Assembly (NCBI GenBank): GCA_016840285.1 | Contig: JAEOSR010000163.1 | Coordinates: 62,001 to 126,000, forward strand | From: Candidatus Hodarchaeota archaeon | GTDB taxonomy: Archaea > Asgardarchaeota > Heimdallarchaeia > Hodarchaeales > Hodarchaeaceae | Reading direction: 5' to 3' | Length of the DNA: 64,000 nucleotides | Shown: positions 21,273 through 48,378 of the stretch, one piece after another | Layout: each line of letters starts with the position of its first letter | How positions within the stretch are numbered: position 1 is the stretch's first letter | Notes under the pieces: generated by a model | Database searches by the model: none | What the model was told of the DNA's origin: nothing | What the model saw: the letters and a program-made list of their open reading frames with translations, nothing else | Made by a program: the position numbers and the translations under genes

Positions 21273-21376
21273 TAATATCACCACCAAATTCATCAATTAC
21301 CAATTTAAGAATTTTTCCAGGTACATAAATCCTCTACAAATCTAGACATGTTGTAAAGAGTTGATCAGGATTCATG

Positions 21377-22900
21377 CTAAACACCAGTTTTGAGAGCTAG
21401 CGCACCCTTACCTGGAGTAGGGGTGTGATTACGGGGGATTATCCCGCCTCCTGAGCCTTGGCGCCGAGTAATTAGTCGGGGTAAACCAACCGACACCTTA
21501 CTCGTTGAATTACCCAAGTGAGCCGTGAACTCATCTATCTCACGGGATAAACGGTGGACCTGTTTGTTTGTCCATCCTTCCATCGGTGGAACAACCAACA
21601 CCAGCCGTTTCCCATTGATGTGAGCATAAAGTTTTTCATTTAAACCCAGACCGCGGCGGGCAATGACTAAAGCGGCAGCCTGGTGAGCATTCAGACCATA
21701 GCAGCGCTGATACTTTATCTTGCCTAGAATCGAAGTATAAGCGGGATTAATCGATTTGATTGTCATTTTCTGTTTAATCGCTTGAGTTTGAATAGTCTGA
21801 ATAAATTTCTTGTGGACAAAGTTTGCATTGATTCGATTCAACTTTTTATTTGATCCAAACTGCTTATAAAATGTCAAATTTTCCAAAGTGAGAGTATTCA
21901 ACTGATACGACGCAATCCAATTGAGAGCTTTTTTCACGAAATTACCGATCAACCAGTTTCGCTTCTCTTTTCGGGCATATACTAGTTCAGGGCTGAAAAA
22001 CCATTTTGAACAGCGATAATTTTCATTAGGATAGACTAAAGTGATTGCTATCCCTGAAGGGTTGAGATCAATTCCAGCTATCCCGTTATTATTTGATATG
22101 ACATCGATTGTATGATCTATTGTAATCAATACTCGACAAGAAGTTCTTTTAGTTTTCTACAAAACGCGAACGGTATATTTCTCTTCACCTGCGGCTAAAT
22201 GTCGAAAAAGTGTTTTATACTTAGTCGGGATATATAAAAAAGCCCTCAGTTGCTCACTTCTTCGGCCACGATCTAATAACATCGAAAAAGTGAATGTATC
22301 AGTAAGAGGATCATAATGAAGTCGTAAGTTGGCGTTTCCTCTTCTATTTCTTTCACCCACACAATATATGCCATTGTTCCGTCTTTTAGTCCATTCCTCT
22401 TTAGATATTTTCCCTTGTCGGTATAGTTGAAGATTTTTTTTGCCTCCAAATACTATTGAGGGTATAGTCTTATTCTTTTGATGGGTTTGCCACTTCATCT
22501 GGATAGACTGGGCCTTTAAGAAACGAGTGTGTAGTCCTTTGAGTTTTTGATATTGTTTTATCGTGAAAGGTCTTTGTATTTGATTCAAGGTTTGTTGGTA
22601 GTCCTTCAAGCGTCGTCTAGTCTGTTGGATTTTCCAAGTACTTTCCTTGCAATAAAGAGAGACAAGCTTTTGTTGGGCTTGGATAATTGCCTTGGCTTCC
22701 TCAATTGCAGAGCGAATATATCGTGCATTAGAGAGGAGATTTAACTTGCGAATCCGAGTGACGATTGTTTGTCTAGCGTGTCCTTTGAGGAGACATTTGA
22801 ATGCGACACGTTTCACGATTTGAAAGCGCCTCATATGATCCTGAATGATTTGATGCTGAACAGTGGATGGATACCAAGCTGCTTCAAGGGTTATTTGCAT
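21377..22900 (-). pseudogene. tnpB: TnpB-family RNA-guided nuclease gene with one in-frame TAG
   Basis: One reading frame of 508 codons is broken only by TAG at 22157-22159 (codon 248). The upstream 247 codons form the WED/REC-like half ('IVFGGKKNLQLYRQGKIS', 'NRRGNANLRL'). The downstream part carries RuvC-I 'GIAGIDLNPSGIA', RuvC-II 'TLTLENLTF' and a RuvC-III region 'YGLNAHQAAALVIARRG'. No Cys4 zinc ribbon lies between RuvC-II and III, and the usual RuvC-III Asp is not obvious. The downstream piece could restart at TTG 22129. The 3' end is GC-rich with inverted repeats, where TnpB guide RNAs normally lie. No TnpA or clear element ends were found. Most likely a decaying insertion-sequence gene. 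Confidence 0.85.
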
Positions 22901-23721
22901 TAGATTCCTCTCTCCATGTGAATTTTTTTTGAAAGGGATTTAGAAACATTTTTGCTAGAATTACATTGTAAATGGTGTGAATAAGGTTGTTTAGCTTGTT
23001 TCCGTTTCAGTCTAGTAAAAGTACGTTCATAGATAGTCTGAGCTAAAACTTTGGGATCATACAACAATTGTGGAGATGGAAAAAAAAGTCTTGTTCGTTG
23101 AGGCATAAGATAAGTGAGTCATTCCTCTGGGGGAGTCAGTAAATGACTATTGGTTGACACCAAGATATCAATGTACTGGGCTGTACAGATTTCAATAATT
23201 TCATAATTTAAGAGATCAGCTGCATGGCGCCAGACAAGCTCGACTTCCAAGCCTAATTGAGTTAAAGCTTTGATAAGAGCAGGATCATCGCAACCAATAT
23301 CCAGTAGAACCCGACGGGGACGGAGTGTCTGTTTTGAAAAAATAAATTGGTTCTTTTCAAATGCTACTTGAAATTGTCCATTTTTTGGTTTATATTTTGG
23401 AATTCGTGGTTGTTGGAAATATTTCTTAGGATGTGATTTCCAATCGATTGAAGCAGCGAAAAATGACTTCCAAGCTTTGTCAACAAGCTGTAGTACTTTT
23501 CGAGCTGTAGGAATAGGCAATTGTTGGAAGTTAACAGAAGATAACAGCTCCTGGTGGAGCTGAGATAGTCGAATCCACTTCTTTTCATTAAAAAATGCGT
23601 GTCTAACTAGATAGTTTGCTTCATTAAACAGATTCTTTGATATATGGCATAGCTTTCGGAGTTGTTCAGTTTGTTTTAACCAGATACGCTCTGTCCTGAA
23701 TATTCTCGTCTGTTCGGTCAA
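22900..23721 (-). pseudogene. chimera of a TnpB N-terminus and a DUF5615/Mut7-C-like PIN domain, with one in-frame TGA
   Basis: Residues 1-135 match the N-terminus of a second kind of TnpB ('SKNLFNEANYLVRHAFF', 'LVDKAWKSFFAA', 'PRIPKYKPKNGQF'). They then switch to a PIN-like nuclease pattern: 'RRVLLDIGCDDPALIKAL' with an early Asp, and 'IDILVSTNSHLL' near 184-195. The frame is stopped by TGA at 23119-23121, but the same frame continues without shift through 'LTYLMPQRTRLFF' to a TAA at 22900-22902, about 273 residues in all. A Trp codon at the TGA would fit. The final TAA overlaps the tnpB ATG (TAATG). Looks like domain capture followed by decay; the PIN reading is inferred by pattern. Confidence 0.65.
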
Positions 23722-24164
23722 GTAATATCACATTTAATCTTTTTTTACATCAAAACATCCTTTTGTCTAAGAGTTTCTAGAAGAAACGAATTTAAGTTGG
23801 TCAAGAAGAAAATCATACATTCCTTTTTAATTACCTAAGAAGATTAATCTTTTAAAGTAAAATTTCACTAATTTCCATGTTAATTATTCCCAAATTCTGT
23901 TGGGTTCTGTTTTAGGAAATAATCTAAGGCTAGTGGGTGTTCCCAGAGCTTATAATCCCTTCTCGCTCTCATCTTCTGATAATGGTTATTGTTTTTCTTT
24001 GAGCTACTTCCCATGTGCTAAGATACTTTGGTTTGACTTCTGTATTAGAAATTTCTACCTATGTCTATTCTATATATGTATAATTTTTCAATCAACAGTT
24101 TTTTCCACCAATATATCCATTATTGCGAAATTACTTAAGTTGGTTAATAGTGAAATAATGCAGT
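23722..24164. other. 443-bp gap without a convincing gene
   Basis: AT-rich sequence between the TnpB/PIN locus and the nucleotidyltransferase gene. It must hold the promoters of two divergent genes and perhaps the end of a former insertion element, but I found no target-site repeat, no terminal hairpin and no tRNA. A 90-codon plus-strand frame across it has no ribosome-binding site or recognisable domain. Confidence 0.4.
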
Positions 24165-45503: not shown

Positions 45504-46895
45504 ATGGATGATAGTTCGCATAGCCAGTCTTCTTTGAACAATCTGCAGAAATGGTCATTTGGTTTAGGCAGTTTTGCTCAGTGGTTCATTAATAGTGCTT
45601 TTAATACTTGGGTTCTAACATTCTATTTTGCCGCAGTTCGACTTCCAATAAACTATATTATGACAGCTTTTATATTATGGACCGTATGGAATGCAATTAA
45701 TGATCCCTTAATAGGATATTTGTCTGATAGGACTAATACGCGTTTTGGGAGAAGAAAACCTTATATCATGATTGGATTAGTCCCAATTTTGATAATCGAG
45801 ATCATTTTATGGATTCCTCCTGTTCCTATTGGAGATGATTATTTTATTACCTTTCTATATCTTTTAGTAATGTTATTTTGTTATGATACGTTCTACACGA
45901 TGGTTTCTCTCCCTTATGATAGCTTATTTCCAGAATTATATACATCTGTCGAAGAGAGGGCAGATGTCAACTCAATCAGACAAGTTCTCTCAACAATAGG
46001 ATTAATTGCAGCTTTTTTAATTCCTGGGATTTTTATTGGAAATCAAGATGTTATGGATGGGTATCTAATCAATGGAATTGTCACCACGATTATTATATTA
46101 ATTTCAATTTTAATTTCATTAAAGTGGGGTGTGTTAGAACGCCCTGAATTCACCCAGGATTATCATCAAGAATTTAATTTCTTTCAAGGTTTGAAACATA
46201 GTTTTCGTCTCAGGAGTTTTGTACTTTATACAATAATGTTCTTTCTGTATGAATATACTTTACTTGTTCTCTCATCTACAGTTCCTTTATATGCGGAATG
46301 GGTATTAGGAATAGAAGATACTCTGTTGACTTCAATTTTACTGGGAACCATGTTTATCGTAGGTATTGCAACTGTGCTCTTTTGGAGAAGATTAGATGTA
46401 AAATATGGCAGTCGAAAGATGTATGCAGTATCAATAGTAGTTTACATAATTACTTCAATCCCATTATTAATTATAAACTCCTTTGAAACAGCAATAATGA
46501 CAGTTGTCTTCATGGGTTTTGGTTTCGGAGGTATGCTATATTTTATCTATCTAATCATAGCTGATGTAATTGATGATGATGAATTAAGAACAGGAGTTCG
46601 TCGTGAGGGTACCTTCTTTGGAATTACTAATTTCTTCATGCGTCTTTCAATGATTTTTTCGATAATCACCGTTTCCTTGGTTTTTTCCAAGACTGGCTGG
46701 GAAACATATAAACCAAATCCAGGTGTCGATGTAATACTAGGATTAAGACTCCTTGTATTCTTATTTCCAGCCATAGCATTGGTAATTACCCTCATCTGCC
46801 TATATTTCTATCCTTATACTAGAGATTATATCATAAATATGAAATCACATGTTCAAGAGTTACACAGGAAAAAACTAGATCAGATCAGTTCTTAA
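45504..46895 (+). CDS. MFS transporter, GPH (glycoside-pentoside-hexuronide) cation symporter type
   Basis: 463 residues with about twelve membrane helices. The loop after helix 2 ('NDPLIGYLSDRTNTRFGRRKPYI', given here in two parts: 'NDPLIGYLSDRT' and 'NTRFGRRKPYI') carries the Asp and the R-x-G-R-R-K-P sequence typical of GPH/MFS_2 symporters that import sugars with a cation. No sugar-catabolic gene is adjacent, so the substrate is unknown. Its 3' end overlaps that of the convergent MttB-family gene by about 11 bases. Confidence 0.88.
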   Translation: MDDSSHSQSSLNNLQKWSFGLGSFAQWFINSAFNTWVLTFYFAAVRLPINYIMTAFILWTVWNAINDPLIGYLSDRTNTRFGRRKPYIMIGLVPILIIEIILWIPPVPIGDDYFITFLYLLVMLFCYDTFYTMVSLPYDSLFPELYTSVEERADVNSIRQVLSTIGLIAAFLIPGIFIGNQDVMDGYLINGIVTTIIILISILISLKWGVLERPEFTQDYHQEFNFFQGLKHSFRLRSFVLYTIMFFLYEYTLLVLSSTVPLYAEWVLGIEDTLLTSILLGTMFIVGIATVLFWRRLDVKYGSRKMYAVSIVVYIITSIPLLIINSFETAIMTVVFMGFGFGGMLYFIYLIIADVIDDDELRTGVRREGTFFGITNFFMRLSMIFSIITVSLVFSKTGWETYKPNPGVDVILGLRLLVFLFPAIALVITLICLYFYPYTRDYIINMKSHVQELHRKKLDQISS

Positions 46896-48378
46896 CATAT
46901 TTTTTATGGATATTCTTCATAATTTCATCTAATTGCTTTACAATATCTTTATCAAGCTCTGGTGGTTGATGTGATTTCATAATTTCGTATGCTATCTCAT
47001 TTGCACGTGTCACAATATCTTGTTTATCTGATTTTTCAAAGACAATGAAATCCGTCCGGTCAAATAATTTCGGCAAAAAGAATTCTGTTCGGAAATGTTT
47101 CAACGTGTGTGAATGACTCAAGAATTCTCCTCCAGGACCTACATCATGAATAACATCAACTGCTAGTGCCTCCTCAGAGATTTCAATGCCTCTTAATACA
47201 CGATTTATTGCTTTCAAGCTCTCGTTGTTGAAAACCATTGCAGCAAAAGAAGCAGCTTGGATTCCAGGCCCAAGACCTCCGAGGGCATTTACTATCAAGT
47301 TTACCCCAGCCATCGAAGCAAGTAACACATTCATTGTTGATTCCTGACCCGCTTGGGCGTCTAAAGCCTTAGAATCAGTGCAACCAGCTGTACCCCTCGT
47401 TGGTAAGTTATAATGCCTAGCCATTTGGGCTGTTAAGATATTCATTAATCCCACTTCTGGAGCGCCAAGTGTAATTTGAGCTGTTCTAGGATCCAGTATT
47501 GAGGAAGCTGTTCCATATACAATAGGTGGAGGGGGTGCAATTCCATAATATTCATTTGCTAATTGACACATTACAATACCTGATAGGATCTCTGCATTAT
47601 GTTGAACTAATGTTCCCCCTAATGTGGCTGGCCCAGTAGCATGAGCCATAACTTCTGGGCAAAAAAGAACTGGTAAACCAAACATGGCAAATCCAAGTGC
47701 ATAATCAGTCATCGTTTCATTATGCACAAGAGGAGAAACAGTGTTAACCCAAGCCCAAGAACAGGGTCGCTTTTGCAAATCGCTTAGGTCTTCCCGAAAA
47801 AGGTTGAAAAATTCTAAACCATCTTCAGGTGTTGCACCGCTTGGTGGTACAAACAATGGTTTGTCGGTATTTTTAACTTCATAAATAAAACGATAAGCAG
47901 CGGCCGTCATGAGATCCAAGCCCTGGTCAATCTCCTCTACAGTTCCTGAAAGTCCTGAACCTCCCAGGTGCATCATTTCAAGGGCGTTTCCAAGACGTGT
48001 CATATTTGCGATATCTTTGTAGGTCGACCTTTGTCGTTTTCCCTTAAAATCAATTATATGGGTTGGGGAATGGCTTATAGTGTAATTAACACGTCCTGGT
48101 TCGAGCTTAATGTGTTTTTTAGAATCAGGATGAACACTATACCACGTAAATGAAGAGGGACATTTATTTAGTACATCTTCAATAAGTTCTGAGTGTAAGA
48201 GTACCCTATTCGACTCAATCTTACATTTATTCTCTTTAAGAATGTCTAATGCTTGTTGGGATAGTACCCGTACGCCTGTATTCTTCAGGACTCTAAGTGA
48301 TGCTTGGTGAATTTCTTCAACTTGTTCCTTTGAAAGGATTGTTAATGGAGGAAGATTGTTTTTAATACCAAGAAGCAT
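46885..48378 (-). CDS. MttB-family methyltransferase (non-pyrrolysine type)
   Basis: 497 residues, full length for the trimethylamine methyltransferase (MttB) superfamily, with 'HLGGSGLSGTVEEIDQGLD' near 135-153 and 'TRGTAGCTDSKALDAQAG' near 330-347. True trimethylamine enzymes contain pyrrolysine (in-frame TAG) in this region; this frame runs without any stop, so it belongs with the non-Pyl members that demethylate quaternary amines such as glycine betaine, carnitine or proline betaine. These pass the methyl to a corrinoid protein; no corrinoid-protein or activator gene is in the window. GGTGAT precedes the ATG. Confidence 0.88.
   Translation of the reverse strand: MLLGIKNNLPPLTILSKEQVEEIHQASLRVLKNTGVRVLSQQALDILKENKCKIESNRVLLHSELIEDVLNKCPSSFTWYSVHPDSKKHIKLEPGRVNYTISHSPTHIIDFKGKRQRSTYKDIANMTRLGNALEMMHLGGSGLSGTVEEIDQGLDLMTAAAYRFIYEVKNTDKPLFVPPSGATPEDGLEFFNLFREDLSDLQKRPCSWAWVNTVSPLVHNETMTDYALGFAMFGLPVLFCPEVMAHATGPATLGGTLVQHNAEILSGIVMCQLANEYYGIAPPPPIVYGTASSILDPRTAQITLGAPEVGLMNILTAQMARHYNLPTRGTAGCTDSKALDAQAGQESTMNVLLASMAGVNLIVNALGGLGPGIQAASFAAMVFNNESLKAINRVLRGIEISEEALAVDVIHDVGPGGEFLSHSHTLKHFRTEFFLPKLFDRTDFIVFEKSDKQDIVTRANEIAYEIMKSHQPPELDKDIVKQLDEIMKNIHKKYVKN

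Follow-up and report, generated by a model that had tools for sequence, protein, structure and literature searches.

Elements of the IS200/IS605 type generate no target duplication and carry terminal hairpins. TnpB nucleases have, in the portion of PMC12669027 drawn on here, formed about 50 independent associations with arrays or adaptation modules, and the same portion describes HRAMP and ARAMP as array-less systems derived from type III. ARAMP (Asgard RAMP; Makarova et al. 2020, CRISPR J 3:156) systems are characterised in excerpts of PMC8730458 as diverged relatives of HRAMP, most of them with a distinct Cas1.

The DNA analysed here, referred to as the window, is a stretch of 64,000 nucleotides from a Candidatus Hodarchaeota archaeon. 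The initial annotation had placed at 22900..23721 a TnpB N-terminus fused to a PIN-like nuclease. The frame and the motifs quoted for it ('RRVLLDIGCDD' and 'DILVSTNSHLL') are present, on the minus strand; as to its extent, the frame is real but forms part of a larger unit of about 21318-24099 on that strand, with the following features:

21318..24099, minus strand: whole inserted unit, about 2.78 kb, with an empty site in L143 and ends uncertain by about 6 bp
23722..24099, minus strand: left terminus of the TnpB-A element with its non-coding leader, 82-83% identical to L018 up to 24100
23333..23721, minus strand: the 5' ~130 codons of a TnpB gene (TnpB-A) that starts with TTG, matching NF040570 and G001:C240
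22903..23335, minus strand: 3' part of the 244-aa 'PIN-like' gene, with 55 relatives and DNA matches to L001 and L002, joined at about 23333-23335
23119..23121, minus strand: in-frame TGA, codon 201, in a Trp column of alignment A7
21377..22900, minus strand: ORF-B, a diverged TnpB-like gene by its sequence, whose ATG overlaps the preceding stop by one base
22157..22159, minus strand: in-frame TAG splitting ORF-B, where L001 and L002 are open
21318..21376, minus strand: right end after ORF-B, alike in the window, L001 and L002, followed by divergence

The stretch 21318-24099 is an insertion: two related genomes lack it at the corresponding site. A gene at 1720-2703, replication-factor-C-like by eye, was compared with 58 genomes of the class; its identity is 93% in G047, 89% in G046 and 82% in G001, so the host of the window is close to these three. 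At the empty site of G047 (L143), the left flank aligns to 21317-21319 and the right flank from 24100, with about 6 bp (TTTTTC) in common, and the flanking genes lie 892 bp apart by their matches compared to about 3.67 kb in the window. These genes were named by eye as hydrolase-like and aspartyl-tRNA-synthetase-like, with a nucleotidyltransferase-like gene between them. The corresponding locus of G001 (L144) is also without the insertion, its right flank aligning only from 24154. The right end of the unit agrees in three copies (window, L001 and L002) at three sites, all of which diverge at the same point, and the left end is common to the window and L018, a fourth site with another neighbour beyond 24100. 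The approximately 100 bp of leader closest to the TnpB-A gene also resemble L009 and L032. Judged from these alignments, the unit is a hybrid with the left end of a TnpB-A element and the right end of ORF-B.

In several respects the unit is like IS200/IS605 TnpB elements: it is a discrete insertion with an empty site (L143), and it shows a TnpB gene, a sharp right end just past the gene and a conserved left leader. Unlike these elements, it has ends from two different TnpB genes with a piece of a foreign gene between them, a possible 6-bp repeat at the junctions, and no recognised transposase, the genes recognised in 21318-24099 being the two broken ones only. The approximately 6 bp shared by both junctions fit a target duplication as well as microhomology. 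Weak hairpins were predicted in four leaders, without a shuffled control. Part of the non-coding leader, about 270 nt (23830-24099, minus strand), is kept at 82% between the distant copies in the window and in L018 (1119-1390); it had no match in Rfam and, L045 aside (the place of L018 again), was missing from every other fetched locus.

The hybrid frame runs from 23721 to 22903 and comprises 273 codons, including the in-frame TGA, with its stop at 22900-22902. Its TnpB N-terminus was confirmed by the profile NF040570 (guided_TnpB), which matched residues 16-125 with E 8.3e-11 and 41.8 bits (profile positions 10-126 of 389); the whole-protein cut-off of this profile is 100 bits, and the TnpB part of the hybrid, being a fragment, lies below it. 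The RuvC nuclease is incomplete in this frame, since the match stops at profile position 126 and the remainder is replaced, and as far as its sequence tells the hybrid protein is not classed as TnpB. For residues 130-273 we obtained 55 relatives (E <= 1, the weakest at 1.4e-19), the best of which is 86% identical over nearly the whole query. The profile match on one side and the relatives on the other show that both halves are real protein sequence and not chance. The join was also seen in the DNA, where 23333-24100 is 83% identical to the TnpB locus L018, and, on the other side, 21317-23323 is 88% identical to L001 and 21318-23335 is 86% identical to L002; no long repeat was found at the join (~23333-23335). 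G001:C240 has an intact frame of 415 codons to which the TnpB-A part is 80% identical, and the column of the TGA is Trp in all 44 rows of alignment A7, which holds 42 of the 55 relatives and two loci. The in-frame stops, TGA in the hybrid and TAG in ORF-B, are absent from intact relatives. We rejected a recoding of these two codons, since long frames of the window terminate at either of them; the stops of the 42 ATG frames of at least 200 codons (overlapping false frames included) are TAA in 25, TAG in 9 and TGA in 8.

None of the 55 relatives carries the same join. Only one of them (P0013) has a TnpB start, joined in frame at a different point, and three (P0022, P0032 and P0040) have no match to either the TnpB piece or the N-terminus of the family. 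With 0/55 relatives sharing the join and P0013 joined elsewhere, the novel TnpB-nuclease architecture proposed initially is not upheld, and the deletion chimera, named at that time as the alternative, gains support. Two related genomes have this TnpB-A start in front of other remnants: TnpB-A 1-93 is followed by 196-244 of the 244-aa gene and then TnpB405 in L046, TnpB-A 1-77 is followed by TnpB405 in L047, and TnpB-A 1-133 with a TAG is followed by TnpB405 up to the contig end in L048. Joins of the same partners thus recur, each at its own place, which is a pattern of decay and not of a conserved fusion.

The second half of the hybrid belongs to a family of Asgard proteins of about 244 aa with an N-terminal domain of their own of about 105 residues, which is matched, at least in part, by 52 of the 55 relatives. 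The named relatives are from MAGs of Hodarchaeales/Hodarchaeota, Heimdallarchaeota, Thorarchaeota and Promethearchaeota. Asp118, Glu151, Asp162 and Asn168 (P0001 numbering) are invariant in the 44 rows of A7. In the predicted model, a strand-helix-strand-strand-helix-strand order is followed by a Rossmann-type domain. The fold search returned a generic Rossmann-type fold and hardly covered the N-terminal domain, whose ferredoxin-like order is that of the model only; there was no PIN chain among the 50 matches listed, which does not exclude PIN. Up to E 10, the window pieces matched no Pfam family (including DUF5615, PF18480). A profile of 27 Asgard DUF5615 proteins, compared profile to profile, aligned over 38 columns at the expected motif with a probability of 15% and P 0.0017, a hhalign value for a single pair without control against unrelated families. 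The family is thus like DUF5615/PIN-like proteins in the motif order seen by eye, in the weak profile match at this place and in the Rossmann-type order of strands and helices, and unlike them in the lack of a Pfam match and in the added N-terminal domain. The motif position which we take to be acidic in those proteins is Asn168 in all 44 rows. Of the PIN-like nuclease in the initial annotation, motif order and a weak DUF5615 match remain, against the empty Pfam search and a fold search with only Rossmann-type results; 'PIN' is used here as a label only, for a weak identity that is plausible but unproven. In intact loci, the 244-aa protein is possibly a two-domain, nuclease-like partner. One relative, P0040 (157 aa, on a 649-bp contig), combines a PF00300 phosphatase-like start with the C-terminus of the 244-aa family and may be a further chimera.

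ORF-B (22900 to 21377) is 86% identical to an intact 515-aa frame of L001. Its first half matched TIGR01765 (E 2.1e-6) and its second half NF040570 (E 1.4e-7), both below cut-off, and the intact ORF-B of L001 reached 41 of 100 bits with the TnpB profile (E 1.4e-10); we regard ORF-B as TnpB-like but, with its profile score below cut-off, do not class it as a member of TnpB. Full-length ORF-B was found in two of the 58 genomes, both times adjoining the 244-aa gene, the other two matches being a 57-residue fragment and a weak match of 62 residues. In its last 60 or so codons (~21380-21556, minus strand), synonymous divergence is 0.10-0.15 compared to mostly 0.15-0.47 upstream, this block being the lowest in two of three pairs and the second lowest in the third, as is expected of an RNA overlapping the end of the gene.

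The survey of loci with the 244-aa gene covered seven loci from named genomes and 12 places in five of the 58 genomes. Intact loci have a PD-(D/E)XK-like gene (a label assigned by eye), then the 244-aa gene and then an effector gene. At the 12 places, the 244-aa gene is followed by a Cas7-like gene in five (with a second RAMP-like gene in four, the fifth being cut by the contig end), by canonical TnpB (TnpB405) in two, by TnpB405 after a remnant in one and by ORF-B in two; at one place the contig end hides the next gene, and at one it is of none of these types. A giant protein of 1000-1450 aa is encoded on the opposite strand at eight places, namely five of Cas7 type, the two with intact TnpB405 and the cut locus. 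No such neighbour of ORF-B was seen at its two places; the contig of L001 starts at the 244-aa gene, and the approximately 850 bp beyond the XK-like gene of L002/L049, of which the first 30 residues are missing, gave no match. P0001 and P0076 both have a longest contig of 6410 bp, and the locus tags of P0014 and P0083 lie two steps of five apart; these are hints only. In the tree of the family, rooted arbitrarily on L021, without support values and without P0013 and relatives shorter than 225 aa, the TnpB405- and ORF-B-type members fall in one part, adjoining the Cas7-type ones.

The giant protein has a predicted Cas1-like fold (Foldseek E 8e-9). Sequence profiles did not match it as Cas1, and its profile did not align significantly with that of 31 Asgard Cas1 proteins (P 0.065); we call it Cas1-like by virtue of the predicted fold. 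In L003 (695-5008, minus strand), its frame is split (202 + 1224 aa) by a frameshift or a sequencing error, and in L004 it is continuous (1050 aa up to the contig end). The Cas7-like protein of L006 narrowly passed Pfam RAMPs (23.0 bits, cut-off 22.1) and matched PADLOC Csm3 (E 1.2e-5). The second RAMP-like gene had no profile match as a Cas5-like partner; a RAMP-type glycine-rich loop was seen by eye. Overall, sequence profiles gave little or nothing for the giant, XK-like, RAMP-partner and 244-aa families, the Cas7-like one alone being matched. Relatives of the Cas7-like protein were found in 12 of the 58 genomes, eight of them without the 244-aa gene. In L133-L136, from genomes without this gene, a Cas7-like gene is followed by a second RAMP-like gene, and there are up to seven matches in G054 and G056. 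As to CRISPR arrays, no exact 18-mer recurred at a spacing of 40-110 bp in the window or in L001-L053, a result which leaves room for imperfect repeats and arrays elsewhere. Twenty-five stretches fitted a pattern for viral contigs, and none was confirmed.

The Cas7-type parent loci, with their Cas7-like protein and distinct Cas1, fit ARAMP, known since 2020: as far as the excerpts of PMC8730458 describe it, they share with it the Asgard host, the Cas7-like and second RAMP-like genes, the nuclease-like genes, the distinct Cas1 and the lack of an array. Unlike ARAMP in those excerpts, the TnpB-type loci have no RAMP genes, TnpB405 standing in their place; as neither the TnpB- nor the ORF-B-type loci have a Cas7-like or a Cas5-like component, we name them ARAMP-related and not ARAMP. 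With type V CRISPR–Cas derived from TnpB, as outlined in the portion of PMC12669027 drawn on, L003 and L004 have in common a TnpB nuclease adjoining a Cas1-bearing module; they differ from it in showing no array, in having the Cas1-like protein as a large fusion and in a module that otherwise goes with a class 1-type effector. The TnpB-type loci look like a new variant, and no description of such an operon was found in the literature searched, including the accessible portions of PMC8730458 (through which the 2020 description of ARAMP was compared), PMC12669027, PMC10910872, PMC11291487, PMC12988326 and PMC9939771.

Taken together, we infer that what looks like a TnpB–nuclease fusion is a hybrid that once was mobile and is now broken, the product of ordinary decay, with a join that has no function of its own. 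A non-autonomous hybrid would have arisen by internal deletion where a TnpB-A gene was followed by a pair of 244-aa gene and ORF-B; it would have moved by its ends using transposase from elsewhere and decayed after moving. In order, the unit consists of the left end of TnpB together with its first ~130 codons, the final ~140 codons of the 244-aa gene, ORF-B and the right end. In the parent loci, the 244-aa protein would belong as a partner to an operon of the ARAMP kind that has no array and includes the giant Cas1-like protein; in part of the family, one TnpB or ORF-B would have taken the place of the Cas7-like pair and would be guided by an RNA made from the 3' end of its gene. We consider this account, from deletion to replacement, probable as a whole. 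Counting against it are the low dN/dS of every piece, the absence of a recognised transposase, the ~6 bp at the junctions as a possible target duplication, a giant protein that no sequence profile matched as Cas1, the lack of a Cas1-like neighbour seen for ORF-B, and the further in-frame TnpB join in P0013. The same protein, together with the join being in frame and low dN/dS on both sides of it, speaks for a working fusion, in which the TnpB part would bind a guide RNA, the PIN-like part would cut, and the TGA would be read through or be an error. Since dN/dS is 0.12-0.26 in every piece of the window compared to its relatives, constraint must have acted until recently, and decay, resting on the two stops, would be recent. 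As the join is shared by no relative, P0013 is joined elsewhere, the remnants L046, L047 and L048 form no such fusion, and both TGA and TAG terminate long frames in the window, we find a working fusion very improbable. Little more credit is due to a chimera of the assembly, by which two repeats of one organism would have been joined and the stops would be sequencing errors: related TnpB copies are abundant in such genomes and favour misassembly, but both ends of the insertion meet the empty site cleanly, so that at least the outer ends are right, and remnants of the same partners occur in other assemblies.

Within the preferred account of a decayed hybrid from ARAMP-kind parents, the replacement step carries a claim of its own. 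We tentatively propose, with considerable reserve, that hodarchaeal ARAMP-related operons swapped their RAMP effector for a single TnpB, with a sister branch carrying the more diverged ORF-B, which would amount to a switch from class 1 to class 2 in an array-less, Cas1-bearing setting; the basis is that in two loci TnpB still stands next to the 244-aa partner, the PD-(D/E)XK-like gene and the giant Cas1-like protein. It is likewise conceivable, to a degree that has to be taken seriously, that TnpB or ORF-B is incidental to the operon, having landed beside the 244-aa gene and removed the RAMP genes, as TnpB405-like genes also stand alone in the same genomes and the right end of ORF-B is sharp and of mobile type. 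Against this, L003 and L004, which are from different genomes, have TnpB405 at an identical distance of 10 bp from the 244-aa gene, and full-length ORF-B occurs only beside the 244-aa gene (2/58 genomes). The operon with the giant Cas1-like protein could also be a casposon-like mobile element in its own right and not a defence system, in keeping with the lack of CRISPR-like repeats, the loci at different sites and a casposase (6opm) among the best fold matches of the giant protein, at rank 3; yet ordinary Cas1 structures match equally well or better, and of seven pairs of inverted repeats around L041, the one locus searched, none flanks the operon. We think this reading less likely than not. 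If the proposed switch is true, both effector states are alive in the same genomes, and a TnpB that replaced Cas7 and its partner beside a Cas1-like protein would permit a direct test of how transposon nucleases are recruited into CRISPR-like systems. The parent loci, which matter more than the fusion as its decayed by-product, also provide a gene set for asking what role an array-less Cas1 system has in Asgard archaea.

Elsewhere in the window, an MttB-like gene (ORF 46885-48378), which has a 497-aa frame without in-frame TAG and may not use pyrrolysine, contains at 47283-47382 (minus strand) a match to Rfam PYLIS_3 (pyrrolysine insertion, mttB) exactly at the gathering score of 38 bits.
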